Shown: piece by piece, positions 17,586-53,618 of the stretch
Layout of the letters: the number at the start of each line of letters is the position of its first letter
Numbering within the stretch: position 1 is the first letter of the stretch
DNA from: Kribbella rubisoli
GTDB lineage: Bacteria > Actinomycetota > Actinomycetes > Propionibacteriales > Kribbellaceae
Length of the DNA: 64,000 bases
Assembly (NCBI RefSeq): GCF_004217145.1
Contig: NZ_SHKR01000015.1
Span: forward strand, 434,001-498,000
Direction of reading: 5' to 3'
Notes under the pieces: model-generated
What the model saw: only the letters and a program-made list of their open reading frames with translations
Told to the model about the DNA's origin: nothing
Database searches by the model: none
Translations under genes and position numbers: made by a program

Positions 17586-20207
17586 TCAGGTCTCGGGGCG
17601 TTGGGGCAGCAGTCCCAGGTCCCATGCTCGCCGTACTGCCTCATTGCGCCGGGAGGCGCTCAGCTTGCGCAGGATGCTCCGTACGTGGCTGCGGACCGTG
17701 TTGACCGAGACGTGCATGGTGTTGGCGATCTCTTCGGTTGTCAGTAGTTCGGCGAGGTACCGGAGCACCTCGTGCTCCTTGCTGCTCAAGGTGTTGGTGA
17801 CAACCAGTTCGTAGCGGGTCCGGCTCGATTGATCCGCCGCACGCTCGCGCCCAGGTCGCGGCGCGTGGAGCCAGGCGTGACGTCGCATCAATTCATTGGT
17901 TGGCTGGAGCAACTTTCGCAGTTGTGGCGGTGTGTGCGAGAACGGACGGCGGAAGTGTTCGGGTGCGGCCAGCCTCAAGGCGCGCTCGACCTGGACGCTG
18001 CTCCGGCGGGAGTCGCCGGTTCTGATCGACTCCGCGGCTTGAACCAGGTACCTGTCGATCTGTGTCTCCAGGGACGTGGCGCGGTGGCCGACCGCGGACG
18101 TCGGGGCAGGACCCTGCTGGCCGGCCTCGGTAGCCGCCCGCTGCAGCACCAGGATCGATTCGACCTGGTCGCGGCCAGGAGAGTCCTCGATCACGGCGAT
18201 TGCCTCATGCGGCAGGTGCTGAGCCACGAGAATCTTCGCCTCGTCGAGGACGAGGGACTGGCCGAGCCAGTCGTCGATCCCCGCACCGTAGCCGTCGGCG
18301 GCCGCCCTGAGCTCAGCACGGGCCACCTCAGCCTGTCCGCCCGATCGGAGCACTCTTGCGCGGACCAGAGCCCCGAAGGCGGCCAGCATGCGTGCATCGA
18401 GCGTCGGTACGGCGTCCCCGGCGCGATGCACCAGGTCCCGTGCTGCCGTGACCTCACCCCGGTCGACGCTGACCCAGGCTCGGGCCACGATCGCTGACTG
18501 CGGCTCATCGAGGTGACCCCCGGCCTCCGCCATCGCGGTTGCTTGCTCGGCGAGCTCGCCGGCCCGACGCAGATGTCCCCACACCGCCTCCACCAGCGCG
18601 GCCATCCCCAAGACGTGCGCCAAGGCCTCGTGCAGACCGGCTTCGTCGGCGATCGCGATCGCCTCGGCGAAGGCCTCCGAGGCTCCAGGGAGGTCCCCCC
18701 GCTCGAGCAGGACCCTACCTTTGCATCCGGCAACGAGTACCTTCGCCTCCGGAGGCGGGCCGCTCGATCCGGCCGATGCCGCTCGGAGCGCGGCCTCGGC
18801 GGCGAGGCTCGCGTCCAACGCCTTGGTTACATCGGCCTCGAGACTCGTACAGATCGCCTCCAGCACGGTGATGGCCAGATCGTAGAAGCGGGTCGGAGGC
18901 AGGACACCTCGCTCCAGACTGGTTCGGGCCTTGCTCAGTTCCGCGGCGCACACGTCGATATCGAAGGCTGCCAGCGCTCGAACGGACCGGACCACGGCGG
19001 CACCCGCTCCGTCCAGGTCGTCGGGAAGGTCAGCGACCAACACTGGCAGGAGCGCCCGCCGGGGCCCGACAAGTAGCTTCGCGAAGTCGAGATCCTCCAC
19101 CAGATACCGTGCCGCGTCGCCCCACTCCAGGGCCGTGATGGCGTGGCGGACCGCTGTCAGCCGGTGCCCGTTCTGTGCGAACCAACCGGCAGCGGTTCGG
19201 TGCAGCTCGGTGACCAGATCCGGCCGCTCGAACAACAGTTGGGCCCGGAGGAACTCACGGAAGAGTGACTGGTACCGGTAGCAGCCGTCGGTCCCCGGAA
19301 CGCGCCGGATGAACGCGTTCTCATGCGACATGAACTCCAACGACCGGCGGTCACAAACGCGACTCGTCAGCGCCTCGGCCAGCGCAGGCCAGAGCTGGTC
19401 GACGATGCAGGTCCGGAGCAGGAACTCCCGCTGCACACCCGGCTGCGCTTGGAGTACCTCGGTCATCAGGAACGCCGACACGTTCCCGATGTCGCCACGG
19501 AACGCTCGGATCGTCTGGGCGATGTCGGCCGTTCCGGCCAGGTTCATCGCCGCGAACGCCAGACCCGCCGGCCAGCCGTCCGTCCTCGCCCGGAGCTCGG
19601 CCACCTCGACCGGTGCCAGATCAAGATTCTCCCGCCGCATCAGCTCGGTTGCCTCCTCCGCCGTGAAGGCGAGGTCGGCCGCGCGAATCTCCGTCAGCAT
19701 CTCCGCCAGCCGATAGCTGTGAAGAGGCAACGGCGGGTCCGCGCGGGTCAGCAGGACGATCCGTATCCTTGCGGCATCGTCGCGGATGACGCGGTCGAGG
19801 CTGTCCCCGAGTTCGGGCGTGAGGCAGAGGTCGCCGCAGTCGACCACGAGGACCAGCGCAGGATCTTCTGCGCGGGCGGCAGCTCTGCGACGGAGACCGT
19901 CGAGCACAGACTGCATCGAGGCCGCAGTCTGTTCATCGGCGGCGTCCACAGCGACGTGCTCGACCGGGCCGGACCAGGTGCCGAGTGCCTCCCACGAGAG
20001 CAGGAGCATCGTCTTTCCGAAGCCCGCCGGCGCACTGACAAGCGTCAGCGGCCGCCGTACTCCTCGGCTCACCAAGTCCAGAAGACGCTGCCGTACGACG
20101 GTCCTCCAGAGCATGGCCGATGCTCCCGCCAGCGGCGTCTGCCCATCCTCGCGAATCGGGGTCCAGCGATGTCCGCGCCCTTTGTCTGCCTGTTGACCCC
20201 CCGGCAT
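17586..20207 (-). CDS. MalT-like LuxR family ATPase regulator 1
   Basis: An 873-residue STAND-type transcription activator. Residues 58-67 carry a Walker A (SAPAGFGKT), and LVLVVDCGDL is the Walker B region. A winged-helix portion and a long TPR-like helical region follow. The last 65 residues are a LuxR helix-turn-helix (SKEHEVLRYLAELLTTEEIA, then VSVNTVRSHVRSILRKLSASRR). An inducer-triggered oligomer is expected to activate promoters. ATG 20207 is chosen because GGAGGGGAG precedes it exactly as in the paralogue at 51012-53618; frames from 20267 or 20237 are longer but lack a ribosome site. It has an island operator upstream, suggesting autoregulation. Confidence 0.92.
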   Translation of the reverse strand: MPGGQQADKGRGHRWTPIREDGQTPLAGASAMLWRTVVRQRLLDLVSRGVRRPLTLVSAPAGFGKTMLLLSWEALGTWSGPVEHVAVDAADEQTAASMQSVLDGLRRRAAARAEDPALVLVVDCGDLCLTPELGDSLDRVIRDDAARIRIVLLTRADPPLPLHSYRLAEMLTEIRAADLAFTAEEATELMRRENLDLAPVEVAELRARTDGWPAGLAFAAMNLAGTADIAQTIRAFRGDIGNVSAFLMTEVLQAQPGVQREFLLRTCIVDQLWPALAEALTSRVCDRRSLEFMSHENAFIRRVPGTDGCYRYQSLFREFLRAQLLFERPDLVTELHRTAAGWFAQNGHRLTAVRHAITALEWGDAARYLVEDLDFAKLLVGPRRALLPVLVADLPDDLDGAGAAVVRSVRALAAFDIDVCAAELSKARTSLERGVLPPTRFYDLAITVLEAICTSLEADVTKALDASLAAEAALRAASAGSSGPPPEAKVLVAGCKGRVLLERGDLPGASEAFAEAIAIADEAGLHEALAHVLGMAALVEAVWGHLRRAGELAEQATAMAEAGGHLDEPQSAIVARAWVSVDRGEVTAARDLVHRAGDAVPTLDARMLAAFGALVRARVLRSGGQAEVARAELRAAADGYGAGIDDWLGQSLVLDEAKILVAQHLPHEAIAVIEDSPGRDQVESILVLQRAATEAGQQGPAPTSAVGHRATSLETQIDRYLVQAAESIRTGDSRRSSVQVERALRLAAPEHFRRPFSHTPPQLRKLLQPTNELMRRHAWLHAPRPGRERAADQSSRTRYELVVTNTLSSKEHEVLRYLAELLTTEEIANTMHVSVNTVRSHVRSILRKLSASRRNEAVRRAWDLGLLPQRPET

Positions 20208-20263
20208 CTCCCCTCCCGGCGATTGACTACCGACCATGCTGCCCCAGGACTGAGCGGGGTAGC

Positions 20264-20280
20264 TCACCCCGCAGGGATGA
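20264..20280 (-). promoter_or_regulatory. island operator for LuxR regulator 1
   Basis: TCACCCCGCAGGGATGA, a near-consensus copy 56 bp before ATG 20207. CAGCAT (20241-20236, - strand) follows after 22 nt. The left half also takes part in a second dyad, GCGGGGT-AGCTC-ACCCCGC (20254-20272). Confidence 0.75.
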
Positions 20281-20346
20281 GGCGTGGTCCACCGTCGCCT
20301 GGGCCAGACTCATGACCGCTTGCGGGCGCAGGGCTCTGAGCGGTTC

Positions 20347-20363
20347 TCACCCCGGCGGGAGGA
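20347..20363 (+). promoter_or_regulatory. island operator for membrane protein at 20452
   Basis: TCACCCCGGCGGGAGGA, 88 bp before GTG 20452. CATGCT (20387-20392) follows after 23 nt. It shares the divergent spacer with the LuxR1 operator. Confidence 0.7.
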
Positions 20364-20451
20364 GGCGACGACCTGCCGGCCCCGTGCATGCTGACGCTCT
20401 GAGCTCGGTGGCGAAAGACGCGATCGAGAACCGGGGCAAAGGACTGAGAAC

Positions 20452-21168
20452 GTGAGCGAGATGATGCGGTCATCCGGCGCCGATGGATCCGAACCCAGCA
20501 CCTCCCGCGGCCGCGGCCGAACTGTCCGGATGTGGTGCGTCGACCTGGCTGTCACAGCGGGCCTCGTCTGTGCGATCGGCAACTGGGGTCTGGGACGCGT
20601 GCTCATCAGTGTGTTCGTTGTCGCGATGGTGACAGCAGTCATCGCCTCGTCCACCTGGGAAGGGCATGGGCGGCCCGCGGCGCTCAGCATCGCTCGGGTC
20701 ACCTTCGCCATCGCGCTGATCATGCCGGCCGCCGTGGGCCTGATAGCGGTCCTCGGCTTCGCCGGCGTCTTGATCGTGCTGGCACTGGCGGCGACCACGC
20801 CGGCTCTCACCTCGCGCTTCCGGGCGCGACGGCGCGCGCAGGCGGATGCTCCCGTCGTACATCCGGAGCGGGCGACACCCCGCGACCCCGCGACGTCGCC
20901 CGCCGACGGTCCTGCGGACGCCCCGGAGCGAGAGCTCAGTTCCCTCGCCGACGTGGAGTTGTGCCTGATCTGGCGCCAGAGCTTCTTGCTGCTGGAGACT
21001 GCCCGTACAGCTGCGGAGCGCCAGTCCGTCGTCGAACTGCGGCAGCTGTACCTCGACGAGCTCCATCGGCGATCTCCGGAGGGTTTCGCGGCCTGGCTCG
21101 CCTCCGGCGCACGAGCATCGGGAAACCCGTTTCCGTATGTCGACGATGCCCGGCGCCGAGCAGGCTGA
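20452..21168 (+). CDS. hypothetical membrane protein with conserved C-terminal segment
   Basis: A 238-residue protein. Four hydrophobic segments lie between residues 25 and 125; two of them pair as in small four-helix membrane proteins. A proline-rich linker follows, then a soluble tail with LSSLADVELCLIWRQSFLLL and LRQLYLDELHRRSPEGFAAWL, which looks like a defined helical domain. The function is unknown. AAAGGA precedes GTG 20452. It is divergent from LuxR1. Confidence 0.65.
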   Translation: MSEMMRSSGADGSEPSTSRGRGRTVRMWCVDLAVTAGLVCAIGNWGLGRVLISVFVVAMVTAVIASSTWEGHGRPAALSIARVTFAIALIMPAAVGLIAVLGFAGVLIVLALAATTPALTSRFRARRRAQADAPVVHPERATPRDPATSPADGPADAPERELSSLADVELCLIWRQSFLLLETARTAAERQSVVELRQLYLDELHRRSPEGFAAWLASGARASGNPFPYVDDARRRAG

Positions 21169-21198
21169 GTCCAGGACTCGAGCGCAACGAACCGGCCG

Positions 21199-21648
21199 TC
21201 AGCTGGTGAAATCGCGGACATCGCGTCCGTGTACGGCCAGCGCCCAGATGACGAAGATGTCGATGGCGATGATGGTCAGCGCCCAGAACGGGTAGTACGG
21301 GATGAAGGTGAAGTTGGCCAGAGCGCTCAACGACGCCAGGACGATGGCCACCACCCGCGCCCAGGTCTGGCCTGCCATGACCGCGAAACCTGCCACCATC
21401 ACCAGGACGCCGAACAGCAGGTGGATCCAGCCCCACGCGGTGGCGTCGAACTGGAACAGGTAGTTGCGGGTGCTGACGTAGAACTCGTTCTGGAAGAGCG
21501 CCACCAGACCGGAGAAGATCTGGAAGCCTCCGGCCAGGACCATCATGACGCCGGCGAACAGGACGAACCCGATTGCCCAGCCGCTGACCTCGTGTTCCTC
21601 GCCCGCGCTTTCGTAATGCGATGCCGCTGCACCGTGTGCCACTGTCAT
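21199..21648 (-). CDS. DUF7144 family membrane protein (copy 1)
   Basis: A 149-residue protein with four membrane helices. The family features are a first helix FVLFAGVMMVLAGGFQIFSGL, a lumenal FYVSTRNYLF strand, the signature TAWGWIHLLFGVLVM, and a last helix ending DIFVIWALAVHGRDV. It is one of four copies in the window. Its role is unknown. GGGAG lies before ATG 21648. It has its own operator, 85 bp upstream. Confidence 0.85.
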   Translation of the reverse strand: MTVAHGAAASHYESAGEEHEVSGWAIGFVLFAGVMMVLAGGFQIFSGLVALFQNEFYVSTRNYLFQFDATAWGWIHLLFGVLVMVAGFAVMAGQTWARVVAIVLASLSALANFTFIPYYPFWALTIIAIDIFVIWALAVHGRDVRDFTS

Positions 21649-21733
21649 TCACTCCCTTGTGCCACGTCGTGATCGAACCGTTCCGCCGTCGCGGAGGGTG
21701 ACACCAGGCTGTCGAATCACCTCGGGCGCGGCA

Positions 21734-21750
21734 TCATCCTCAGGGGACGA
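21734..21750 (-). promoter_or_regulatory. island operator for DUF7144 copy 1
   Basis: TCATCCTCAGGGGACGA, with CAGCCT (21711-21706, - strand) 22 nt downstream. Confidence 0.7.
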
Positions 21751-23251: not shown

Positions 23252-24556
23252 CTAGTTCGCGGTTCCGGGAACGGCTTCGGCCGGTGGGACGGGACGGGAG
23301 GCGGACGAAGCCCGGCCGGCGCCGACCAGGAGCTGCACGACGACCAGCAACAGGGCCACGAGCGCGAGCGACCAGAACAGCCTGCCGGTCGAGATGTTGT
23401 TGCCCCAGAGCAGTACGACGGCGCCCAGCAGGCCGACGGCCACGCGCAGCCACCGGGCGTTGACCGCGACCCACCGGCCCGCGGTGCCGACCGGACCGTT
23501 GGACAGGGCCGCGCCGATACCTTCCAAGCCATCGCGGATGGCAGCGCGTACGGCGGTGCCGGACTTGTTGGGTCCCGTGAACCAGCCGATGACAATGATC
23601 GCCAGAGCCAGCCGGAAGAACACTTGCCGGCCACGCTCGAGGTAGGACAGCAGCGTGTCGTAGAAGACCGCGCTCGCCGGACCGAACGTCGTACCCGACA
23701 GTGCGTCGATGAACAACTGCCGTCCGACGGTCAGCGCCGCGGCGATCAATAACGCGTTCACCGCCAGCAGCACCCCGATGATTACCGTCGTCCGGGGACG
23801 CCGGCGCGAGAGCACCAGCGCAAGCAGATAGAGCCCGGCCACCACCACGATCAGCCATTGCGCAACCGGGTTCGCGAACGCATAGATCGTTCGCAGCTGC
23901 TTCACCTGCGGCGCTTCCACCAGCACGATCTGCTTGTCGACGTCGGGGACAGGCACGTTCTGCAAGATCGTGAGGCCTCGATCGACCAGGCGTTGCTTGA
24001 CCTGGTCGATGACCTGAGAGACGTCGAGGACGATCTGTTCATCCTGCAGCGAGACGGCTCCGGTTTGATCACCCTTCAGGATGCGCTGGAGCGTCTGCTG
24101 GGCCCTGGTGTTGGCGGCTGTCCAGAGGTCGGCGAACGCATCCGACGCGAGGAACTCCCGGACCTGGCGGTCGATCAGGCTGTTGATCGCGCCGGACAGC
24201 GGCCCGACCAGTCGCTGCAGACGCGGACGGTCGGTGATGACACCTGCGAACACGGCGTTGAGGAGCGCCTCGATGTCGACCTGTTCCTGGATCGTGTCGG
24301 TGACCTTCGTAGCGATGGCGTCCTGCACCTCCGGCGAGTCCACCAGCGGGCCGACGGTGTTCACGTAGCGCGTGGTGTCGTTCAGCGTGCGCTGTCCCCA
24401 GTACGCGATCGCCGCCGGAGTGGTCAGCAACGCCGCCAGCACCAAGCAGACGATCACCGCGGCCGAACGCCCCTTCGAGGGCCGCTTCGCCTCGGCTGTC
24501 CCGGCCGGCACGCCGCTTTCTGTACGTCCGGACAGCGTTGGGTCTGGAACAGCCAT
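23252..24556 (-). CDS. large hypothetical membrane protein
   Basis: A 434-residue protein. After a polar N-terminus there is one helix (AAVIVCLVLAALLTTPAAIA, about residues 30-50). A 170-residue extracytoplasmic helical domain follows (NDTTRYVNTVGPLVDSPEVQ, SLIDRQVREFLASDAFADLW), then five or six helices. This architecture is common in actinobacteria, but no function is known to me. GAGGAGG precedes ATG 24556. It leads the operon with the DUF4239 and 21765-22418 genes, under an island operator. Confidence 0.75.
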   Translation of the reverse strand: MAVPDPTLSGRTESGVPAGTAEAKRPSKGRSAAVIVCLVLAALLTTPAAIAYWGQRTLNDTTRYVNTVGPLVDSPEVQDAIATKVTDTIQEQVDIEALLNAVFAGVITDRPRLQRLVGPLSGAINSLIDRQVREFLASDAFADLWTAANTRAQQTLQRILKGDQTGAVSLQDEQIVLDVSQVIDQVKQRLVDRGLTILQNVPVPDVDKQIVLVEAPQVKQLRTIYAFANPVAQWLIVVVAGLYLLALVLSRRRPRTTVIIGVLLAVNALLIAAALTVGRQLFIDALSGTTFGPASAVFYDTLLSYLERGRQVFFRLALAIIVIGWFTGPNKSGTAVRAAIRDGLEGIGAALSNGPVGTAGRWVAVNARWLRVAVGLLGAVVLLWGNNISTGRLFWSLALVALLLVVVQLLVGAGRASSASRPVPPAEAVPGTAN

Positions 24557-24618
24557 GCCGCGCCTCCTCGCCGCTCGGGCTAAGGGATCGATCGTCGCCG
24601 CCACGGGCGAACGGAACC

Positions 24619-24635
24619 TCACCCCGCGTGGATGA
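24619..24635 (-). promoter_or_regulatory. island operator for three-gene membrane operon
   Basis: TCACCCCGCGTGGATGA, 62 bp before ATG 24556. GACGAT (24596-24591, - strand) follows after 22 nt. Confidence 0.75.
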
Positions 24636-25026: not shown

Positions 25027-25043
25027 TCATCCGCGCGGGGTGA
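25027..25043 (-). promoter_or_regulatory. island operator for small membrane protein 24645-24944
   Basis: TCATCCGCGCGGGGTGA. AACGAT (25004-24999, - strand) follows after 22 nt. It shares a divergent spacer with the DUF1269 gene. Confidence 0.75.
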
Positions 25044-27873: not shown

Positions 27874-30228
27874 CTACTCTCGCATCAGCATCAGGGCGGC
27901 TTCGCGTTCGAGATCCATGTACGGCTCACCGCTGACGTCGACGGCCACCCGGTTGATCGTGCCGCCGGTGAAGTAGTGCGGCGGCTCGCCCGGGTAGTCG
28001 TCGGTGATCGGCTCGCCGCCGTGCCTGCCGACGTACAGGCCTGAACCCGCGATGGCGAAGGCTCCGAGCTGGGTCTTGATGTGTCCCTCGCCGACTTTCT
28101 CGTCCCCGTGGAAGAGCGAGAGCGTTCCGGTCGCGGCGTCCGGGTCCATCCCCTGCTTCTCGAAGGAGGCCGACAGGATCAGGTTCTTACCCGTCGGGAT
28201 GTCCTTCGTCCCGACGATCTGCTGCTCCAGCGCGCCGACGAAACTGTTCACGTAGTGGAGACGATTGTTCTTCACGTACAGCGCATGGCCACCGAATCTG
28301 GCCCCCATCGCGAACAACACACCTTCGGCTCCCGGCGCCGGGATGTCGACCAGCGCGCCGATCGTGAAGGAGCGGTTGCGGGTGTTGACCGCCTGCCACT
28401 CCGACACCGGGGCGGTGTCCGGGTAGTACACGTACCGGTCCTTCGGCGCGCTCAGCTGGGGCCGTGGGGTGGTGAGGATCTCCAGCGCGGAGCGATCGTC
28501 GAGCGGGAACGCGTTGTTCGCCCCGGCCTCCGCGAACCAGATGTTCACCAGCTCGCGCAGCTTGTCCGGCTGCTCCGCCGCGAGGTTCTTGATCTCGGAT
28601 CGATCCACCTCGACGTGGTACAACTCCCATTCGTCGGCGTTGAAGTTGGCCCAGCCGGAAACGGTCGGGTGGGTGGTGACCGCCTTCCACCCCTCGTGGT
28701 AGATCGAGCGGGATCCCAGCATCGAGTAGAACTGTGTCTTTCGTCCGGACTCTGCGGATGCGTCGTCGACGCTGCCGCGCATGCTCACCCCGTCGAAGGT
28801 GCTCTGGGTGTGCCCCTTGATCGTCTCCGGCGCTTCGACGCCCAGTACGTCGAGAATCGTCGGGACGATGTCGATCGCGTGGTGGTACTGGTGACGGAGC
28901 TCGCCGCGTGCCCGGACGCCCTTCGGCCACGAGATGATGCAGGGGTCAGCGGTGCCGCCGTTGTACTCGTACCGCTTCCACATCTTGAACGGGGTGTTGA
29001 AGGCCATCGCCCAGCCGTTCGGGTAGTGGTTATAGGTCCTGGTGCCACCCAGGTCGTCGAGCTTGGCGAGGTTCTCGGCCAGGTCGTCGCGGATCCCGTT
29101 GGCGAACTTCATCTCGTTGACCGAGCCGTTCGGACCGCCTTCGCCGCTCGCACCGTTGTCGGACACGACCACGACCATGGTGTTGTCCAACTGCTCGATC
29201 TGCTCGAGGTAGGCGAGCAACCGGCCGATGTGGTGATCGGCGTGCGCGAGGAATCCGGCGTACACCTCGGCCATCCGGGCGAAGAGGCGCTTCTCGTCGG
29301 CGTTCAGCGTGTCCCACGGCCGGGTGTAGTCCAGCTCCGGGAACGGCTGGTGGTCCGGGCCGCTGCGCGTCTGGGGCGAGCCGATCGGATTCAGCGGTGC
29401 GACTTCGGTGTTCTCCGGTACCAGACCGAGCTTCTTCTGGCGCGCCAGCGTCTCGTCCCGCATCGCCTCGTACCCCTGGTCGAAACGGCCGGCGAACTTC
29501 TCGATCCAGTCCTTCGGTGCGTGGTGGGGTGCGTGGCAGGCGCCAGGCGCGTAGTACAGGAGGAACGGCTTGTCCGGAGCGATCGCCTTGGCGTCCTTGA
29601 TGAACTCGATCGCCTTGTCGGTGATGTCGTCGGTCAGGTGGTAGCCCTCCGCGGGGGAGCGCGGCGGCTCGACCGGGTGGTTGTCGTAGACGAGGTCGGG
29701 ATACCACTGGTTGGTCTCGGCCCCGAGGTACCCGTACCACCGCTGGAAGCCCCGGCCGGACGGCCAGTTGCGGCGCGTCGACGCGAGGTTCATCTCGTCG
29801 GTCGGGCACAGGTGCCACTTGCCCACCATGTAGGTGTTCCAGCCGCGCTCTCCGAGGATCTCCGAGAGCATCCCGTTCGCCGGCGGGATCGTGCCGCTCG
29901 CGTTCGGGAATCCGATCGCCGCTTCGGTGATGCACGCCATGCTGTTACGCGTGTGGTTGCGGCCGGTCAGCAGACACGACCGGGTCGGTGAGCACAGCGC
30001 CGTCGTGTGCCACTGGGTGAAACGCACCCCGCGAGCGGCGATCGCGTCGATGTTAGGGGTCTCGATCGGCCCGCCGTAGCAGCTCATGGCCGAGTAGCCG
30101 ACGTCGTCCAGGACGATGTAGACGACATTCGGCGCACCGTCCGGCGCCTTCGCCGGCTCGAACGGCGACCAGTCCGGCACTGAGTCGCGAATATCGACGT
30201 TGATCGATCCCCGGAACTGCACAGGCAT
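27874..30228 (-). CDS. type I sulfatase (arylsulfatase)
   Basis: A 784-residue sulfatase. Metal ligands DD lie at residues 41-42. The formylglycine signature CSPTR starts at Cys79, followed by SCLLTGRNH. GKWHLCP, VVVVSDNGASGEGG and the NGGTADPCIISWPKG region complete the active-site set. The C-terminal 170 residues form a beta-rich, lectin-like domain. No signal peptide is visible, so it may act in the cytosol or leave by an unknown route. It needs a formylglycine-generating enzyme encoded elsewhere. ATG 30228 is chosen because GGAGG lies five bases upstream; ATG 30240 would lack one. Confidence 0.92.
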   Translation of the reverse strand: MPVQFRGSINVDIRDSVPDWSPFEPAKAPDGAPNVVYIVLDDVGYSAMSCYGGPIETPNIDAIAARGVRFTQWHTTALCSPTRSCLLTGRNHTRNSMACITEAAIGFPNASGTIPPANGMLSEILGERGWNTYMVGKWHLCPTDEMNLASTRRNWPSGRGFQRWYGYLGAETNQWYPDLVYDNHPVEPPRSPAEGYHLTDDITDKAIEFIKDAKAIAPDKPFLLYYAPGACHAPHHAPKDWIEKFAGRFDQGYEAMRDETLARQKKLGLVPENTEVAPLNPIGSPQTRSGPDHQPFPELDYTRPWDTLNADEKRLFARMAEVYAGFLAHADHHIGRLLAYLEQIEQLDNTMVVVVSDNGASGEGGPNGSVNEMKFANGIRDDLAENLAKLDDLGGTRTYNHYPNGWAMAFNTPFKMWKRYEYNGGTADPCIISWPKGVRARGELRHQYHHAIDIVPTILDVLGVEAPETIKGHTQSTFDGVSMRGSVDDASAESGRKTQFYSMLGSRSIYHEGWKAVTTHPTVSGWANFNADEWELYHVEVDRSEIKNLAAEQPDKLRELVNIWFAEAGANNAFPLDDRSALEILTTPRPQLSAPKDRYVYYPDTAPVSEWQAVNTRNRSFTIGALVDIPAPGAEGVLFAMGARFGGHALYVKNNRLHYVNSFVGALEQQIVGTKDIPTGKNLILSASFEKQGMDPDAATGTLSLFHGDEKVGEGHIKTQLGAFAIAGSGLYVGRHGGEPITDDYPGEPPHYFTGGTINRVAVDVSGEPYMDLEREAALMLMRE

Positions 30229-30283
30229 GACGTCCTCCATCTTCGATGTCAGTCCAGGCTCGATCTCCTGCGGTCCCGAGTCG

Positions 30284-30300
30284 TCACCCCCGCGGGATGA
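30284..30300 (-). promoter_or_regulatory. island operator for sulfatase-HAD operon
   Basis: TCACCCCCGCGGGATGA, 55 bp before ATG 30228. GAGCCT (30261-30256, - strand) follows after 22 nt. Confidence 0.78.
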
Positions 30301-39262: not shown

Positions 39263-39279
39263 TCACCCCGCAGGGAGGA
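39263..39279 (-). promoter_or_regulatory. island operator for DUF2252-SulP-ATPase operon
   Basis: TCACCCCGCAGGGAGGA, 110 bp before ATG 39152. AATCGT (39239-39234, - strand) follows after 23 nt. A hairpin CCGGGCTCG/CGAGCCCGG lies in the leader at 39180-39202. Confidence 0.7.
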
Positions 39280-39312: not shown

Positions 39313-39329
39313 TCATCCCGGGTGTGGGA
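39313..39329 (+). promoter_or_regulatory. degenerate island operator for diacylglycerol-kinase-like gene
   Basis: A perfect left half (TCATCCC), but the right half is displaced (GGGATG ends at 39332). CAGGAT (39352-39357) lies 22 nt downstream. If used, transcription would start near 39364, which argues against the in-frame ATGs at 39329 and 39356. Confidence 0.4.
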
Positions 39330-39421
39330 TGCCTCGGGCATGGCGGCCGCACAGGATGGGCCTGGCGTCGGGACTCGGCGCCGGAGCGGAGATTCTGAGG
39401 CGGTCCGATGGGGTGGAACTC

Positions 39422-44284: not shown

Positions 44285-44695
44285 ATGACCGACGACCGCG
44301 CTGTCGAGTCGCAGGCCGACTCGGGCTGGGCGATGAGCGGAGTCGCCTTCGCCGCCACGATGCTGCTGATGATCGGCGGCTTCCAGGTGATCACCGGCCT
44401 GGCCGCGATAATCAACGACGATTACTTCGTGCGGGTCAGGGGTTACGCCTTCGATCTGGACATCACCGCCTGGGGATGGATCCACCTGATCCTCGGCCTG
44501 GCCCTCATCGTGACCGGGATCGGCTTGTTCTCCCGGGCGGTCTGGGCCGGCGTCATCGCGCTGTTCCTGGTGGTGCTGAGCGCGATCGACAACTTCTTCT
44601 TCATTCCCTATCAGCCGTTCTGGTCGCTGCTGCTGATCGCCCTCGACGTGTGGATCATCTGGGCGCTGACGCGTCCGCGCGCCCTCCGTAGGTAA
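44285..44695 (+). CDS. DUF7144 family membrane protein (copy 3)
   Basis: A 136-residue, four-helix protein: GVAFAATMLLMIGGFQVITGLAAI, DDYFVRVRGYAFDL, TAWGWIHLILGLALIV, and FFFIPYQPFWSLLLIALDVWIIWALT. Ribosome site GGAGAGGTGGAG precedes ATG 44285. It is the first gene of a four-gene operon that continues with the holin-phosphodiesterase, phospholipase D and a membrane protein (gaps of 13, 27 and 1 bp). Confidence 0.88.
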   Translation: MTDDRAVESQADSGWAMSGVAFAATMLLMIGGFQVITGLAAIINDDYFVRVRGYAFDLDITAWGWIHLILGLALIVTGIGLFSRAVWAGVIALFLVVLSAIDNFFFIPYQPFWSLLLIALDVWIIWALTRPRALRR

Positions 44696-44708
44696 CGGCC
44701 GCGCCACC

Positions 44709-46736
44709 GTGTCCACGCCGCTGGTCCGCGCCGGTGATCTCGGCCGGGTCGTTGCGACCTATGTCAGCTCGGTCCTGGCCCTCGCCCTCGCGGGTGCCGT
44801 GCTGCCCGGCCTGCGATTCTCGTCGTTCCCGCAGTTGCTCGCCTCGGCGGCGGCGACGTTCCTGGTCGGTGCCCTGGTGCGCCCGTTGCTGGTGGCCGCG
44901 AGCGCCGCGATCGGATGGCTCGCGGTACTCCTCGTAGCGGTGCTCGGACAGGCCGTGATCCTCGCGGGGGCGCTCACACTGATCCCGGGGGTCGAGGCGG
45001 ATTCGTTCTGGGTCGTGCTCGCCGCGGCGTGGATCGCAGCGGCCGTGGCGACGATCGTGGCGTGGCTGTGCACCTCTGGTACGTCGGAAGCCTTCACCGC
45101 GGCCCTCGTACGCCGGACCAGGCGGCGGCAGAAGCCTGTCGAGGATCCCGAGGCTCCCGGCGTCATCTTCGTCCAGCTCGACGGCGTGCCCTTCCCGGTA
45201 CTGCGCTGGAAACTTCTCGCTGCCAGCCTGCCCACGATGGGGCGCTGGATCCGCGACGGTGGCTATCGGCTGGTGGAGTGGACCCCGGTGCTGCCACCCA
45301 CCACGCCCGCCAGTCAGTTGGGGATCCTGCACGGCCGCATCGACGGCGTACCCGCCTTCCGTTGGTACGACCGGGCCCTGGGGCGCGTACTGGTCGCCAA
45401 TCGGACCGCTGATGCGGCGGAGATCGAGCGCCGGGCCTCCGACGGCCGCGGTCTGCTGGCCGATGGCGGCGTGAGCATCTCCAACCTCTTCAGCGGCGAC
45501 GCCGAGCGGTCGGTGCTGACCATGAGCAAGATCGAGCTCGCCCGCGGTTCGGCCGACACGCGTCGCCGTGCTGCCTGGTATCTCGCCCGGCCGGACGGTT
45601 TCGCCGGCAGCCTGTCCGGGGCGGTCGCGGAGATTGCGCGGGAGCGGTTCGAGTCGCGTCGGCAACGCCGCCTCGATGTTCGCCCGAGAGGAGAGCGCGG
45701 CTGGCTGTTCGCCGGCATGCGCGCGGTGACGAACGTCGTACTGCGCGACCTCAACACCGCGCTGGTGGCCGAGGAGATGATGCATGGCACGCGGGTTGTG
45801 TATGTCGACTATGTCGACTATGACGAGGTGGCCCATCACGCCGGCGCTTTGCGGCCGGAGTCGCTGGGTACGCTGGATCGGCTCGATCGTGTTCTGGCCT
45901 GTTTGGAGGCCGTCGCCGCGGCGGCGCCGCGGCCGTACCGCCTCGTCATCCTGTCCGACCACGGTCAGTCCCAGGGAACGATCTTCGCCGATCGGCACGG
46001 GATCGACCTGGCTGCGGTCTGCTCGCAGTTGACCGCCGCACGGGTCGAAACGGTCGAGCAGTCGGTCGAGGGCTGGGGCCGCCTGAACGGCCTTCTGGCG
46101 GATCTGTCCGGCGGCGGCTCCGGCACCGGACGGGTGGCCCATCATGCGGCGCTGCGGGTGCAGCACCGTGCCGCACCGCCGGCGGTCACCACGAGTTCGG
46201 AGCTGGTCGTCCTCGGGTCGGGAAACCTCGGCCTGGTGTACGCCGCCGAGGAGCGCCGGCTGACGATGGAGGAGATCACCGGTCGCTGGCCGGCTCTCAT
46301 CCCCGGGCTCGTGGACCACGACGGGATCGGCTTCATCGCGGTGCTGAGCACCGAGCATGGGCCGCTGGCACTCGGGCCGTCGGGTGTACACCGGCTGTCC
46401 GACGCGAAGGTGACCGGCGTCGACCCGCTCGAGCCGTTCGGGCCGCATGCCTCCGCAGACCTGCTGCGAGCGGTATCGATGCCCGAGGCACCTGACCTGT
46501 ATGTGAACAGCTCTGTCGACCAGGACACCGGCGAGGTTTCCGCGTTCGAGGGTCTGGTCGGCTCTCACGGCGGACTCGGCGGGTGGCAGGGACGGGCGCT
46601 GCTCCTGGCTCCACCGGACCTGGTGATACCCGACCGGCCGATCCGCGGCGCGGACGAGCTCCACCGCGTGCTCGTCGGGTATCTCGAACAGCTCGGTCAG
46701 CGCAGCGGGCTCTCCCGCGATACCGCGGACGTCTGA
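44709..46736 (+). CDS. holin-like membrane domain fused to phosphodiesterase-type domain
   Basis: A 675-residue fusion. Residues 15-125 contain four membrane helices of the phage-holin-family-4 kind (VVATYVSSVLALALAGAVLPGL, ATFLVGALVRPLLVAASAAIGW). From about residue 150 an alkaline-phosphatase-superfamily domain begins (VIFVQLDGVPFPVLRW, metal ligand Asp), with LPPTTPASQLGILHG, YVDYVDYDEVAHHAG and LSDHGQSQG supplying the remaining ligands. It probably hydrolyses a phosphodiester or phosphonate at the membrane. GTG 44709 has only a weak ribosome site and is likely reached by coupling to the DUF7144 gene. Confidence 0.82.
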   Translation: MSTPLVRAGDLGRVVATYVSSVLALALAGAVLPGLRFSSFPQLLASAAATFLVGALVRPLLVAASAAIGWLAVLLVAVLGQAVILAGALTLIPGVEADSFWVVLAAAWIAAAVATIVAWLCTSGTSEAFTAALVRRTRRRQKPVEDPEAPGVIFVQLDGVPFPVLRWKLLAASLPTMGRWIRDGGYRLVEWTPVLPPTTPASQLGILHGRIDGVPAFRWYDRALGRVLVANRTADAAEIERRASDGRGLLADGGVSISNLFSGDAERSVLTMSKIELARGSADTRRRAAWYLARPDGFAGSLSGAVAEIARERFESRRQRRLDVRPRGERGWLFAGMRAVTNVVLRDLNTALVAEEMMHGTRVVYVDYVDYDEVAHHAGALRPESLGTLDRLDRVLACLEAVAAAAPRPYRLVILSDHGQSQGTIFADRHGIDLAAVCSQLTAARVETVEQSVEGWGRLNGLLADLSGGGSGTGRVAHHAALRVQHRAAPPAVTTSSELVVLGSGNLGLVYAAEERRLTMEEITGRWPALIPGLVDHDGIGFIAVLSTEHGPLALGPSGVHRLSDAKVTGVDPLEPFGPHASADLLRAVSMPEAPDLYVNSSVDQDTGEVSAFEGLVGSHGGLGGWQGRALLLAPPDLVIPDRPIRGADELHRVLVGYLEQLGQRSGLSRDTADV

Positions 46737-46763
46737 GCGCCCACGCGACCGAGGGAGGTCACG

Positions 46764-48359
46764 ATGATCGACGACACTGCCGGGCAATGGTTCCTCCGAC
46801 CGGACGAGCGCGGCAATCCCGGAACCGACATCGACCGGGTGGGAGACGTGGACGGGTCCTGGGTCGACGGCAACCTGGTCCGTCCGCTGATCCACGGGGC
46901 GACCTACTTCCGTCGGTTGTACGAAGAACTGTGCGCGCTGCGGGCCGGTGACCGGGTCTATTTCACCGACTGGCGTGGCGACTCGGACGAGAAGTTGCTG
47001 CCCGACGGTCCGACGATCGGAACCGTGCTGGCTGATCTGGCCCGATCGGGAGTCGAGGTCAGGGGTCTGCTCTGGCGATCGCACTCGGATCACCTGCGAT
47101 TCAACGCACGGGAGAACCAGCGGCTGGGGACGAAGCTCAACGAGGCCGGCGCCGAGGTGCTGCTCGACCAGCGGGTCCGGCATCTGTCCTCGCACCACCA
47201 GAAGCTGTTCGTGATCCGGCACAAGGGTCGCGCAGACCTGGGTGTCGCGTTCGTCGGCGGCATCGATCTGTCCCACCAGCGTCGTGACGACGGCGAGCAT
47301 CTGGGCGATCCGCAACAGGCGCCGATGGATCGCAGGTACGGCGACCGCACGCCCTGGCACGACGCGGCGCTGGAGATCCGGGGACCGGTCGTCGGCGATC
47401 TGCTCCGCACCTTCGTCGAGCGCTGGGACGACGGTCATCCGCTCGACCGGCGGACGCCGTACCGGATGATCGTGCAACGACTCGCGCGGATGCCGCGCCA
47501 TCCGAAGTCACTGCCGGAGGAGTTCCCCGATCCGCCGCCGGCCGGGCCGCACGCCGTACAGGTCCTGCGAACGTATGCCCGCAAACGTCCCGGCTATCCG
47601 TTCGCGCCGCAGGGGGAGCGGAGCATCGCCCGGGCCTACGGCAAGGCATTCGCCAGGGCCCGGAAATTGATCTACCTGGAGGACCAGTACCTGTGGTCCG
47701 AGCTGATCGCGGAAGGGATCCGCGATGCTCTCGAGCGGTCGCCCGGCCTCCGCGTGATCATCGTCGTACCGCGGTACCCGGATGCCGACGGCCCCGTGAG
47801 CGGCCCCCCGGAACGCTTCGGTCAGTTGCGCGCCGTGCGGCTGCTGCGCGAGGCTGCGCCTGCCCGGGTCGGCATCTACAACCTCGAGAACGCCGCGGGG
47901 GCGCCGATCTACGTGCACGCGAAGATCTGCATCGTGGACGACGTGTGGTTCACCTGCGGCTCGGACAACTTCAACCGTCGTTCCTGGACCAGTGACAGCG
48001 AACTCACCTGCGCGGTTCTGGACGCGACCCCCGACGACCGGGATCTAGTTGCTGAGGGCACCCGTCGGCTCGCCCGCGACCTGCGGCTCGAGGTGTGGTC
48101 GGAGCATCTCGGGTGGCCGCGGTCCAGTCTGGCGCAGCTCGACCTGTTGACAGGGTTCGAGCTGTGGCAGCGCACCGCCGCGGATCTGGAGTCCTGGTAT
48201 GCCGGTGGCAGGAAGGGCCCCCGTCCGTCCGGAAGCATCCGCCCGCACGAGACGCAACACGTGACCCGGTTCCAGGCGCTCTGGGCCGAACCGTTGTACC
48301 GGCTGATCTACGATCCCGACGGCCGCCCCCGCCGGATGCGCCGGAGTGGGGAGTTCTGA
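46764..48359 (+). CDS. phospholipase D family protein
   Basis: A 531-residue PLD-superfamily enzyme with two HxK motifs. SSHHQKLFVI (His145, Lys147) is followed by arginine where HKD normally has Asp, then AFVGGIDLSHQRRDD. VHAKICIVDDVWFTCGSDNFNRRS is a complete HKD. A cardiolipin-synthase or phospholipase D reaction is likely; there is no signal peptide or membrane helix. GAGGGAGG precedes ATG 46764. Third gene of the operon. Confidence 0.88.
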   Translation: MIDDTAGQWFLRPDERGNPGTDIDRVGDVDGSWVDGNLVRPLIHGATYFRRLYEELCALRAGDRVYFTDWRGDSDEKLLPDGPTIGTVLADLARSGVEVRGLLWRSHSDHLRFNARENQRLGTKLNEAGAEVLLDQRVRHLSSHHQKLFVIRHKGRADLGVAFVGGIDLSHQRRDDGEHLGDPQQAPMDRRYGDRTPWHDAALEIRGPVVGDLLRTFVERWDDGHPLDRRTPYRMIVQRLARMPRHPKSLPEEFPDPPPAGPHAVQVLRTYARKRPGYPFAPQGERSIARAYGKAFARARKLIYLEDQYLWSELIAEGIRDALERSPGLRVIIVVPRYPDADGPVSGPPERFGQLRAVRLLREAAPARVGIYNLENAAGAPIYVHAKICIVDDVWFTCGSDNFNRRSWTSDSELTCAVLDATPDDRDLVAEGTRRLARDLRLEVWSEHLGWPRSSLAQLDLLTGFELWQRTAADLESWYAGGRKGPRPSGSIRPHETQHVTRFQALWAEPLYRLIYDPDGRPRRMRRSGEF

Positions 48360-49476: not shown

Positions 49477-49510
49477 GGTGGCGCCCGGCGTCGCGACGGA
49501 GCATGGTCGC

Positions 49511-50077: not shown

Positions 50078-50556
50078 GAACGGACGGGCCGGTGTCGATC
50101 GTCCCGCGGGAGGCGCTGCAGTACCAGGGACGGCGAGCAGGACTCGTGACCCGATCGGTCGCCGGTGTCATCGACGGAATCGTCGTGGTGGTAGCGGTGC
50201 TGGCCGGCTATGTGGGCGTCAACGGGCTGAGGTTCCTGGTCCGTCCGCGGGGTTTCCAGTTCAGTGAGGCATCGCCGCTGCCGGCCGTGACGACCGTACT
50301 GCTGGTTCTGGTCGGCTACCTCTTCGTCGCCTGGTCGATCACCGGACGGACCTACGGCTGCCACGTGATGGGCCTGCGGGTCGTCGGTCGTGGTGGTGAA
50401 CGGACAGGTCCCCTTGTTGCGCTGCTGCGGGCCCTGTTCTGTGTGTTGTTCCCGCTCGGACTGCTGTTGTGTGCCGGCGGCCGCCAGCACTCTCTGCAGG
50501 ACGTCGTCCTGCGTACGTCGGTCATCTACGACTGGCGACCCGGACCGCCACGATGA
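50074..50556 (+). CDS. RDD family membrane protein
   Basis: A 160-residue protein with the RDD pattern: GLVTRSVAGVIDGIVVVVAVLAGY (basic residue followed by Asp in helix 1), SITGRTYGCHVMGLRVVGRGGE, and a C-terminal QDVVLRTSVIYDW. Four hydrophobic segments are present. Its role is unknown; some RDD proteins act as ion antiporters. The start ATG overlaps the preceding stop (ATGA). Confidence 0.85.
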   Translation: MRTDGPVSIVPREALQYQGRRAGLVTRSVAGVIDGIVVVVAVLAGYVGVNGLRFLVRPRGFQFSEASPLPAVTTVLLVLVGYLFVAWSITGRTYGCHVMGLRVVGRGGERTGPLVALLRALFCVLFPLGLLLCAGGRQHSLQDVVLRTSVIYDWRPGPPR

Positions 50557-50566
50557 GGAGTTGACC

Positions 50567-50992
50567 ATGTCGGACATCGACAGGCGCGTCGCGGCGCCGC
50601 ACGGGGGCTGGGTGGGCCCGATCGTCTTCGCCGCCGTAGTGATGATGGTCATCGGTACCATGCACGGATTCGAGGGGATCGTCGCTTTGCTGAACGACGA
50701 CTACTACGCGGTGCCGAAGAGCGGTCTGGCCATCCATGTCGACTACACCGCCTGGGGCTGGACACATCTGATCGTCGGCACTGCCGTCCTGGTGGCCGGA
50801 TTCGGTGTCCTGCTCGGTCAGGTGTGGGCGCGGGCCGTCGGGGTGGTCATCGCCGTCGTGAGCATTCTGACGAATATGGCCTTCCTCTCCGCGTCTCCCG
50901 GCTGGACCACGATCATGGTCGCTCTCGACGTCCTGGTGATCTGGGCGCTCACCTTCCACGGTCGTGACGTCCGGCCGAAGCACGGCGCCTGA
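50567..50992 (+). CDS. DUF7144 family membrane protein (copy 4)
   Basis: A 141-residue, four-helix protein: GWVGPIVFAAVVMMVIGTMHGFEG, DDYYAVPKSGLAIHVDYTAWGWTHL, a VGVVIAVVSILTNMAFL helix, and LDVLVIWALTFHGRDV. Like copy 1 it ends in HGRDV, while copies 2 and 3 share the FFFIPYQP form, so there are two sub-lineages. GAGGAG precedes ATG 50567. Last gene of the 49511 operon and convergent with LuxR regulator 2. Confidence 0.87.
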   Translation: MSDIDRRVAAPHGGWVGPIVFAAVVMMVIGTMHGFEGIVALLNDDYYAVPKSGLAIHVDYTAWGWTHLIVGTAVLVAGFGVLLGQVWARAVGVVIAVVSILTNMAFLSASPGWTTIMVALDVLVIWALTFHGRDVRPKHGA

Positions 50993-51011
50993 CCGGTTGC
51001 GGGCGGGTGGG

Positions 51012-53618
51012 CTAGGCCTCAGGGCGCGAGGGCAGCAGCCCCAACTCCCAGGCCCGCCGTACGGCCTCGTTGCGGCGTGATGCGCTCAGCTTGCGCAGAA
51101 TGCTCCGGACATGGCTCCGAACCGTGTTGACGGAGACGTACATCGTCTCGGCGATCTCCTCGGTCGTCAGCAACTCGGCGAGGTACTCGAGCACCTCGTG
51201 CTCCTTGCTTGTCAACGCTGCGGTGATGACCAACTCACGTGGTGTCACTCCCCAGCGACTGGCGGTCCGGTCGCGACCGCGAAGACCCGGCGTGCGCAGC
51301 CACGGGTGATGTGTCATCAGGTCACCGCTGGGCCGCAGCAGCGGTCGCAGCGCCGGCGGCGCCTCCGCGAACGGACGGCGGAGCTGCTCGGGTGCAGCCA
51401 GTCTGAGCGCCCGTTCCAGGCAGAGCCCGCTACGACCGGTGTCTCCGGTCCTGATCGATTCCGCGGCTTGGACGAGCCAGCCGTCGACCTGGATCTCGAG
51501 TGCGACGCCGCGATCCGTGGCCGGGAGCGGTTGAGGGGACGGGGGGTCGCCGGCCTCGGCAGCTGCTCGCTGCAGCACCAGACGCGATCCGACGTTGTCA
51601 CGACCCGCGGACTGCTCGATCGTCGTGATGGCCTCGCGTGGCCGGTGTTGTGCCACGAGCGTCTTCGCCTCGTCGATGGTCAGGGCCTCCCCGAGCCAGC
51701 CACCCTGCGCGCCATAGGAGTCGCGCGCCGCCCGGAGCTCCGCGGCGGCACGATCGATCTTGCCGGTCGCCCGCAGCAGCCTGGCCCTGACCAGGGCGAG
51801 AGCGGCCGCGAGAACCCGGGTGTCATGGGTGGGTGCGGCTTCCTCGGCACGCTGCACCATTTCTTCGGCGCTGGGTAGCTCGCTCCGATCGGTGTGCACC
51901 CAGGCCCCCGCCACGATCGCGGACTGCGGCAGTTGCGCCCCCGACTCTGCCACCGAGGTCGCGTGCGCGACGACTTCCCCGGCTCGCCGCAGATGTCCCC
52001 AGGCCGCTTCCACCAGCGCGGCCATGCCGAGGAAGTCGACGAGGGCATCCTGGGCGCCGTTCTCCTCCGCGAGCGCGATCCCCTCGGTGAAGGCTCCCAG
52101 GGCGGCCGGGAAGTCTCCGCGCTGGAGCAGCACGCGGCCCTTGCTGCCGGCAACCAGCAGTCTCGGCTCCGGATGCGCAACGGCTGACTCCGGCGACGTC
52201 GCTCTCAGGTCGGCCTCGGCGATCAGGACCGGGACCAGCCCGCTCTCGGGATTCTCGCTGAGGCTTGCGCAGACCGCTTGCAGCACCCTGATGGCCGACT
52301 CGGCCGGCTGTCGTCGAGCGGACGTCTGACGGTCCAGGCGGACCGCGGCCTTGCCGAGTTGCGACGTACAGCGGTCGACATCGAACTCGGCCAGCGCGCG
52401 GGCGGCGTTGATGATCGCGGCCTCCGAACCGTCCAGATCATCGGGGAAGCCGGCGAACAACGTTGTCAGCTGTTGCCGTCGGCGCCCGACGAGGAGACCG
52501 GCGACCTCGAAATCCTCCACCAGGTACCGGGCTGCGTGCTGCCAGTCACCGGCCGCGACAGCGTGGTGGATCGCATGCAACGGCTGACCGTTCTGGGCGA
52601 ACCAGGCCGCGGCATCGCGGTGGAGTGCAGGGACGAGGGTCGGCGATTCGAACATCAGCTGCGCGCGAAGGAACTCGCGGAACAACGCCTGGTAGCTATA
52701 GCAGTCTGCTGTTCCCGGAACAGGCTGGATGAACGAGTTGCCGTGCGAGAGGAACTGCAACGACCGACCGGCAGAAGCCTGGCCGGTCAGGAGTGCGGCC
52801 AACTCCGGCCGGACCTCGTCGACGATGCAGGTCCGGAGCAGGAACTCGCGCATCTCCGGCGGCTGGGCATCGAGTACCTCGGTCATCAGGTACGCCGCCA
52901 GGTTCCCGGAGTCGCCGCGGAAGTCCCGAATGACCTGGTCCGCGTCGGCCTTCCCGGTCAGGTTCATGGCCGCGAACATCAGGGCGGCCGGCCAGCCGTC
53001 GGTGCGGGCCTGGAGTTCGGCGACCTCCGAGATCGTCAACTCGAGTTTGTGCTCGCGCATCAGTGCTGTGGTTTCGTCGATCGTGAAGGCCAGGTCCGCG
53101 GCCCGGATCTCGGCGATCGTGCCTGCCAGCCGATAGAGGTGCAACGGGAGCGGCGGGTCGGACCGGGTCGCCAGCACGATCCGGACGCGTCCGGCATTGC
53201 CGCGGATCAGGCGCTGCAGACTGCGTCCGAACTTGGGCGTCACCGTGAGGTCGCCACAGTCCACCAAGAGCACCTGCACGTTGCGATCGCGGCGGGACAG
53301 ACCCTCCCGCACTGACTCCACCATTGCCGGCGGGTCTTCGCTGGCGGCATCCAAGGCGATTCGTCTGACGACGGCCGGACCCTGGTACTGCCCTGCCCAT
53401 GACTTCAGCAGCATCGTCTTGCCGAAGCCTGCCGGCGCACAGACCAGCGTGAGCGGCCGCTGAACCCCCAGGCTCATGCGGTCGACAAGGCGTTGCCGCG
53501 GTACTGTCCCCGGTGGGATCACCGAGGTCTTGGTCCGGGACCTCAGGTGACCGTAGAACGGTGCATCCGGTGACGTACTGCGCTGGTTTTCCACCCCTAC
53601 GTACTGATCGCTCGGCAT
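51012..53618 (-). CDS. MalT-like LuxR family ATPase regulator 2
   Basis: An 868-residue paralogue of the regulator at 17586. Walker A is CAPAGFGKT (about residues 60-68), and VQVLLVDCGDL is the Walker B region. A TPR-like middle region follows. The C-terminal LuxR HTH (SKEHEVLEYLAELLTTEEIA, VSVNTVRSHVRSILRKLSASRR) is almost identical to copy 1 through the recognition helix, while sensor regions differ more. The two probably read the same DNA site but different signals. ATG 53618 follows GAGGAGGGGAG, the same context as copy 1. The nearest island operator is 190 bp upstream and fits the divergent gene better. Confidence 0.92.
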   Translation of the reverse strand: MPSDQYVGVENQRSTSPDAPFYGHLRSRTKTSVIPPGTVPRQRLVDRMSLGVQRPLTLVCAPAGFGKTMLLKSWAGQYQGPAVVRRIALDAASEDPPAMVESVREGLSRRDRNVQVLLVDCGDLTVTPKFGRSLQRLIRGNAGRVRIVLATRSDPPLPLHLYRLAGTIAEIRAADLAFTIDETTALMREHKLELTISEVAELQARTDGWPAALMFAAMNLTGKADADQVIRDFRGDSGNLAAYLMTEVLDAQPPEMREFLLRTCIVDEVRPELAALLTGQASAGRSLQFLSHGNSFIQPVPGTADCYSYQALFREFLRAQLMFESPTLVPALHRDAAAWFAQNGQPLHAIHHAVAAGDWQHAARYLVEDFEVAGLLVGRRRQQLTTLFAGFPDDLDGSEAAIINAARALAEFDVDRCTSQLGKAAVRLDRQTSARRQPAESAIRVLQAVCASLSENPESGLVPVLIAEADLRATSPESAVAHPEPRLLVAGSKGRVLLQRGDFPAALGAFTEGIALAEENGAQDALVDFLGMAALVEAAWGHLRRAGEVVAHATSVAESGAQLPQSAIVAGAWVHTDRSELPSAEEMVQRAEEAAPTHDTRVLAAALALVRARLLRATGKIDRAAAELRAARDSYGAQGGWLGEALTIDEAKTLVAQHRPREAITTIEQSAGRDNVGSRLVLQRAAAEAGDPPSPQPLPATDRGVALEIQVDGWLVQAAESIRTGDTGRSGLCLERALRLAAPEQLRRPFAEAPPALRPLLRPSGDLMTHHPWLRTPGLRGRDRTASRWGVTPRELVITAALTSKEHEVLEYLAELLTTEEIAETMYVSVNTVRSHVRSILRKLSASRRNEAVRRAWELGLLPSRPEA

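Follow-up and report, generated by a model that had tools for sequence, protein, structure and literature searches.

An island of the Kribbella rubisoli genome carries two giant LuxR-type regulators whose DNA-binding ends are nearly the same, which raises the question of what DNA they read, which genes they control, and whether they act as two inputs on one operator. We addressed this in a window of 64,000 nucleotides on contig C5 of the host genome (8.64 Mb), together with 38 genomes of the genus and a sample of 196 genomes of the order. Our results argue that both proteins are very likely MalT-type STAND activators with one DNA specificity and one regulon.

Two MalT-type regulators

The two genes and their DNA-binding domains are located as follows:

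17586 to 20207, minus strand: copy 1 (LAL1), MalT-type STAND regulator of 873 aa read from the ATG at 20207, with a NOD ATPase, a TPR sensor and a C-terminal GerE/LuxR HTH
17607 to 17801, minus strand: HTH of copy 1, 57 of 65 residues the same as in copy 2
51012 to 53618, minus strand: copy 2 (LAL2), MalT-type STAND regulator of 868 aa
51033 to 51227, minus strand: HTH of copy 2, residues 798 to 862

A preliminary description of this DNA had reported two large MalT-like LuxR proteins of these lengths, and both open frames are confirmed; for copy 1 there is also an alternative longer ORF of 893 aa with a GTG start at 20267. By their ATPase and HTH, both copies belong to the broad MalT-type STAND LuxR family. 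The Walker A sequence APAGFGKT is present in each, the GerE HTH (PF00196) scores 47.9 and 47.5 bits (cut-off 23.5), and a profile of the two copies matches the NOD of MalT (8bob) with an E value of 3.7e-34. The MalT-like TPR sensor (PF17874) reaches 44.8 and 35.6 bits with a cut-off of 45, and scores for the MalT equivalog (NCBIfam NF003420) are 183.1 and 201.5 bits versus a cut-off of 537. The next-best long match to the regulators in the host genome is only 33% identical.

A structure model of copy 2 (seven sequences, mean pLDDT 71.6) is of middling quality, with HTH blocks at pLDDT 41-53, and is thus uninformative for the HTH. Its top Foldseek match is the MalT ATPase 8bob (E 2.9e-13; Z 20.5, rmsd 7.2, 351 aligned); against MalT domain III (1hz4) it gives Z 19.6 and rmsd 4.4 with 303 aligned, which ties with other TPR proteins.

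Over 841 aligned positions the copies are 61% identical. The preliminary description had the ATPase shared and the TPR part diverged; identity is in fact highest in the HTH (88%), with 63% for the NOD and 57% for the arm and TPR. Since the HTH alone stands out, there is no special divergence of the sensor, while the near-identical DNA-binding ends are borne out: VSVNTVRSHVRSILRKLSASRR is common to the two copies with no difference. Gene conversion was considered as the cause of this likeness and rejected, as fourfold sites differ in the HTH (13/33) nearly as they do in the NOD (58/127) and TPR (73/159). Hence, the HTH protein has been conserved by selection and not by recent gene conversion.

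The common start-site context also holds, as GAGGGGAGATGCC occurs within the window at the starts of copy 1 and copy 2 only. The string looks like a strong ribosome-binding site of the usual kind followed by the start codon, and its presence in both copies is most simply explained by inheritance from a common ancestor. A version of the start context with two free bases was discarded, being at chance level (11 matches versus 24.6 expected); this gapped pattern failed because the true context has no gap.

The palindrome and promoter geometry

The palindrome found at the promoters of the island has the consensus TCAYCCC-N3-GGGRTGA. Allowing at most one mismatch, TCAYCCCNNNGGGRTGA occurs at 23 places in the 8.64 Mb genome, against 2 for the same pattern written backwards. 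Eleven of the 23 fall in the window, which is 0.74% of the genome (simple binomial 5e-18, a value that, like the Fisher value below, overstates independence because genomes are related and genes orthologous). With at most two mismatches the window has 16 sites, versus a mean of 1.30 in 100 shuffles (sd 1.16, largest 4). The preliminary description had named two sites, at 20264 and 54395, where the island has about a dozen. These sites, with the putative −10 hexamers of two promoters and two small genes beside copy 2, are listed below; offsets are from the palindrome centre.

15648 to 15664: palindrome, 1 mismatch, phased for the SulP permease gene 13897-15651
15685 to 15701: palindrome, 2 mismatches, phased for the plus side (TAGCGT at +31)
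20236 to 20241, minus strand: putative −10 of copy 1, CAGCAT, +31 from the 20264 site
20264 to 20280: perfect palindrome within the promoter of copy 1; 57 bp separate its low end from the ATG
20347 to 20363: palindrome, 1 mismatch, phased for the plus-strand gene at 20452 (CATGCT at +32)
21734 to 21750: palindrome, 2 mismatches, upstream of a DUF7144 gene (21199-21648, minus)
24619 to 24635: palindrome, 1 mismatch, at the upstream end of gene 23252-24622 (minus; GACGAT at +31)
25027 to 25043: palindrome, 1 mismatch, upstream of a DUF1269 gene (plus), phased on the minus side (AACGAT at +31)
30284 to 30300: perfect palindrome before the sulfatase gene 27874-30240 (minus; GAGCCT at +31)
39263 to 39279: palindrome, 1 mismatch, upstream of a diacylglycerol-kinase-domain gene (plus), phased on the minus side (AATCGT at +32)
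53811 to 53827: perfect palindrome between copy 2 and a divergent small gene, 193 bp upstream of the copy 2 ATG
53850 to 53855, plus strand: putative −10 of the divergent small gene, GAGCGT, +31 from the 53811 site
53888 to 54154, plus strand: small protein gene, divergent from copy 2
54141 to 54392, plus strand: further small ORF that overlaps the preceding one, as read from the sequence
54395 to 54411: palindrome, 1 mismatch, before a DUF6325 gene (CACTGT at +31)
57451 to 57467: palindrome, 1 mismatch, between an ion channel gene (minus) and gene 57558-59051 (plus)
59574 to 59590: palindrome, 1 mismatch, between a SHOCT gene (minus) and a DUF308 gene (plus), phased both ways

As the 15648 site is phased for the SulP permease, the true start of that gene should lie further in. 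In L155 and L161 the sites at the DUF7144 promoters have 1 mismatch. On the minus side of the 25027 site a small gene of 105 aa is found in L155 and L161, and a gene likewise lies on the minus side of the 39263 site in L156 and L162. The diacylglycerol-kinase promoter also holds a wider-spaced inverted pair, TCATCCCGGGTGTGGGATGC, at 39313-39332, with a similar one there in L156, L159 and L162.

The spacer is fixed. In 580,006 bases, made up of the window and 28 loci from 11 genomes (L155 to L185 minus L171, L181 and L182, with L186 to L194 outside the count), a spacer of 3 gives 90 sites with at most one mismatch, against none for spacers of 0, 1, 2, 5, 7 and 8, one for 4 and 14 for 6. Over the same bases, 60 scrambled palindromes yield a mean of 1.6 and a largest count of 25. 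Crude gene calls, which often place ORF starts too early, put 68 of the 90 palindromes between genes versus 15% of the bases, and just 12 of the 21 perfect ones; a called gene start lies −40 to 350 bp from 80 of the 90. Sites that recur in several genomes stand at the regulator genes, DUF6325, the sulfatase, DUF7144, the channel, gene 57558, gene 23252, DUF1269 and others.

The phase to the promoter is likewise constrained. Among 99 oriented flanks, xANNNT peaks at +31 from the palindrome centre (37%, family-weighted), with +32 as runner-up (15%) and a mean of 3.6% over 73 offsets; the complete hexamer TANNNT shows no enrichment at +31 in these flanks (3%). In the window, xANNNT at +30 to +32 accompanies 10 of the 11 sites with at most one mismatch in at least one direction, and 13 of the 16 with at most two, where the background is 7.6% per direction; it is absent in both directions at the 57451 site. 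The usual distance from a −10 to the transcription start is about 7 nt. A −10-like hexamer at +31 thus predicts a start some 35 nt past the 3′ end of the motif, or about 43 bp from the palindrome centre. As the palindrome would then be centred over the −35 element, binding should activate transcription.

Being short inverted repeats that are often intergenic, the palindromes could instead be dispersed repeats or RNA hairpins (terminator or REP-like) with no operator function. The fixed spacer and the enriched phase to a −10-like hexamer speak against this, as do a distribution linked to the regulator clade (see below) and the little conservation beyond ±11 of the centre save for that hexamer and its mirror; we regard such an origin as extremely improbable.

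The regulator clade as probable reader of the palindrome

The two window proteins were placed in a tree of 48 homologues (48 ORFs, minus one below 600 aa and one with a duplicate end, plus the window pair), which represents part of the genus places matched. Seventeen island proteins form one clade (100/100) inside a clade of 25 (100/99). The larger clade includes three Micromonosporaceae proteins, L047_9977, L048 and L049; the Actinoplanes regulator ACSP50_3915 itself is not in the tree, and where the island clade joins L182_11370 and L184_8562 the tree program warns of a possible long-branch effect. A palindrome with at most one mismatch lies within about 450 bp upstream of 20 of the 25 clade members, versus 0 of the 23 other homologues. 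In the island subclade all 17 have one, 16 of them perfect; the Micromonosporaceae members have weak upstream sites (2 mismatches in two, none in one), and L182_11370 and L184_8562 have no palindrome in 450 bp upstream. HTH identity to copy 2 is 54-100% inside the clade and 38-51% outside.

Throughout the genus, perfect palindromes occur in all 11 genomes with an island-type regulator (35 sites), versus 4 of the 27 without one (4 sites; Fisher 1e-6, subject to the overstated independence mentioned above). Those four genomes, G010, G013, G017 and G029, have one site each, and weaker homologues exist in all of them; the G013 site is near DUF6325- and DUF6069-like genes. The backward control pattern matches once across the 38 genomes. 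At E ≤ 1e-200 the sulfatase is found in exactly the 11 of 38 genomes that bear the island-type regulator, and therefore island and regulator travel together.

Across the order, the link of palindrome and clade is looser than in the genus. With the looser pattern TCAYCCN5GGRTGANG, counted on both strands so that one palindrome may count twice, 107 of the 196 genomes have at least one hit. At a threshold of at least 8 hits, chosen after viewing the order table, sites are abundant in 16 of the 20 genomes that have a homologue at E ≤ 1e-60, versus 7 of the 176 that lack one. All seven of the latter have a homologue between 2e-34 and 7e-54, which says little because 29 of the 38 genus genomes match at 1e-30, mostly outside the clade and in site-poor genomes. 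Seven genomes with lower counts served as controls from the order: a homologue is present in G040 and G045, and at 1e-15 there is no match in G060, G039, G055, G062 or G079. Regulators of a sister group (L142, L190, L191) have TCACCCCATCGGGGCGA upstream in three genomes, which suggests a further regulon whose operator is almost the same.

If conserved sites were seen only in front of the regulator genes, they would also fit another reader, with the two LuxR genes as mere targets. Yet the palindrome tracks this HTH clade, and among 29 places of the host genome matched by copy 2 only the two copies exceed about 46% in the HTH region. Furthermore, in Actinoplanes SE50/110 a 51-gene region contains two MalT-like genes and the motif TCATCC-5nt-GGATGA upstream of 17 transcription starts, and deletion and overexpression of MalT (ACSP50_3915), the activator of that region, shift the genes behind the motif, according to the text available from that study (Droste et al. 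2020, PMC7567727, itself cited by PMC11205506). A different reader is hence very unlikely. As the preliminary description had proposed, the two near-identical HTHs are the candidates for reading the palindrome, a claim strongly supported by the co-occurrence of palindrome and clade and by this experimental counterpart. They very probably recognise it before about a dozen promoters of the island.

Other sites lie elsewhere in the genome. A second small cluster, L036 (G000:C1:775000-794999), holds a LuxR homologue and DUF7144-, AI-2E-, sulfatase- and DUF6325-like genes, with palindromes nearby, including L037 6570-6586; one of these is perfect. They are possibly remote targets of the two copies. 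The homologue there (C1:778.8-781.0k, 761 aa), also near palindromes, was examined as a third reader and set aside, since the likeness of its HTH to that of copy 2 is 46% and the tree puts the protein on a long branch outside the clade. Another perfect palindrome, L038 3883-3899 (G000:C11:42882-42898), is distant from the island and lies between two minus-strand genes.

Two copies, one probable operator, and the Actinoplanes counterpart

The operator just upstream of copy 1 that had been described is the perfect palindrome at 20264. The autoregulation proposed with it draws its support from promoter geometry, the centre being followed by CAGCAT at +31, a hexamer that also appears in the LAL1 promoters of L155, L160 and L161; copy 1 probably activates itself. 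Copy 2 had been treated as lacking an operator; the other site named was 54395. The perfect palindrome at 53811, which had been missed, is nearer, while 54395 stands before DUF6325. In the direction of copy 2, the 53811 site has CAGGTT at +30 in the window, which is absent from other genomes, and the genomes compared have no conserved −10 at the proper distance. In the other direction, a hexamer at the GAGCGT position occurs in 4 of 5 labelled rows, L184 being the exception. Given this phasing, copy 1 is well positioned for positive autoregulation and copy 2 not clearly so; the nearest site of copy 2 would instead serve to activate the divergent small gene. Relatives of that gene (53888-54154) adjoin related LAL genes in L182 and L184, and its longer ORF, 53846-54154, has no Pfam match. 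By eye, it and the overlapping ORF 54141-54392 are alike.

The regulator genes differ in number among the genomes that bear them: six of the 11 have two copies, and five (G012, G020, G023, G032, G034) have one. In the tree, the copies that join copy 1 come from G006, G016, G026 and G035 (both copies in the last), and those that join copy 2 from G006, G016, G026 and the five single-copy genomes, the latter grouping being weak (84/83). Both G015 copies lie inside the clade at a position not placed. The duplication clearly took place within the Kribbella clade, and the two products would have retained their DNA specificity.

This bears on the claim that two inputs converge on one operator, which is possible but open to doubt, as five of 11 genomes have a single copy, the sensors are still 57% identical, and the second Actinoplanes regulator has slight effects. 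It would also be compatible with shared specificity if only the copy 2 type drove the regulon, copy 1 being a redundant or minor duplicate. The regulator of the single-copy genomes groups, if weakly, with copy 2, and the island genes and sites are kept there; moreover, deletion of the second gene in Actinoplanes, ACSP50_3917, had merely slight effects, according to unpublished data quoted in PMC7567727. On the other hand, copy 1 retains an open frame and a conserved HTH, is present in G000, G006, G016 and G026, and has a phased perfect operator in all four LAL1 promoters examined (window, L155, L160, L161). The second Micromonosporaceae regulator that could be placed, L047_5136, belongs to another clade, so that the second Actinoplanes gene may be a poor model. 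A regulon driven by copy 2 alone is plausible, though we incline against it. A further and more doubtful idea, offered tentatively, is that the pair is a duplicated STAND switch in which the operator is shared and the inducers differ, with mixed assemblies perhaps forming on a single palindrome; copy 1 would activate itself, copy 2 would feed the divergent small proteins, and the island would work as an OR gate or mixed-oligomer integrator.

For the shared regulon that we favour, the following mechanism is proposed. By analogy with E. coli MalT, where the inducer drives opening of the NOD (PMC4381067, in the part available), an inducer bound by the TPR sensor would open the ATPase and allow the protein to assemble. 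The HTHs of the assembled protein would bind TCAYCCC-N3-GGGRTGA, each half acting as a MalT-box-like GGGRTGA, with the centre about 43 bp before the predicted start and over the −35 element. The regulon would comprise the surrounding island and a few remote promoters, its members including SulP permeases, a Na/H exchanger, the sulfatase, a P-type ATPase, DUF7144, DUF1269, DUF6325, DUF308 and SHOCT proteins and the ion channel.

A Pfam scan of 30 island proteins left 9 without a match. It identified transport proteins and enzymes (three sulfate permeases, Na/H exchanger, sulfatase, cation ATPase, diacylglycerol kinase domain, AI-2E transporter) as well as DUF7144 (three), DUF6069, DUF1269, DUF6325, DUF308, SHOCT, ion channel, PLD-like and other domains. 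No maltose gene was recognised and no biosynthetic family found by Pfam among these 30. From its gene content, the island looks like an envelope or ion-homeostasis set. A 948-aa ORF at 44655-47501 (minus strand) overlies plus-strand genes with Pfam matches (44709-46736 and 46764-48359) and is probably a high-GC artefact.

The likeness to Actinoplanes, as far as its available description goes, covers a large region of poorly annotated genes, several of them membrane- or transport-related, with two MalT-like LuxR genes inside, and TCATCC-N5-GGATGA in the surrounding promoters, a motif that the Kribbella island has as well. The motif overlaps the −35 in Actinoplanes, as is predicted for Kribbella; the distance from its 3′ end to the start that is predicted in Kribbella from the −10-like signal agrees with the 34.4 ± 1.0 nt measured in Actinoplanes (PMC7567727). 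The Actinoplanes region is described as patchy and rearranged in relatives. The systems differ in that both Kribbella regulators are copies of one subclade, whereas in Jidongwangia, our proxy for Actinoplanes, the second regulator (L047 5136-7895) is in another clade; the gene content of the Micromonosporaceae proxies L047-L049 overlaps that of the island only partly. PMC7567727 compares Micromonosporaceae, and its available text does not contain the word Kribbella, which is also unmentioned in the best-matching part of the related literature.

E. coli MalT shares the STAND ATPase and LuxR HTH and probably the TPR sensor, the ATPase being alike by sequence and fold and domain III by fold. The half-sites are similar to the MalT box, quoted in PMC7567727 as GGGGA(T/G)GAGG, but Kribbella has one fixed palindrome where MalT has repeated boxes. 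The LAL regulators of actinomycete metabolite clusters have, by the descriptions available, the same broad architecture of ATPase and C-terminal LuxR HTH; the Kribbella island differs from such clusters in lacking a biosynthetic family among the proteins scanned.

Taken together, the sequence comparisons suggest that the Kribbella system is a variant of one shown experimentally in Actinoplanes, with the two in-clade copies as its novel feature. They would give a large, as yet unexplained pool of actinobacterial genes (DUF7144, DUF6325, DUF1269, SulP, sulfatase and others) an operator, a promoter geometry and a clade of regulators, and would extend this assignment outside the family of the original discovery. 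The two regulators also provide a natural duplicate pair in which STAND sensors may be compared against a fixed DNA target.
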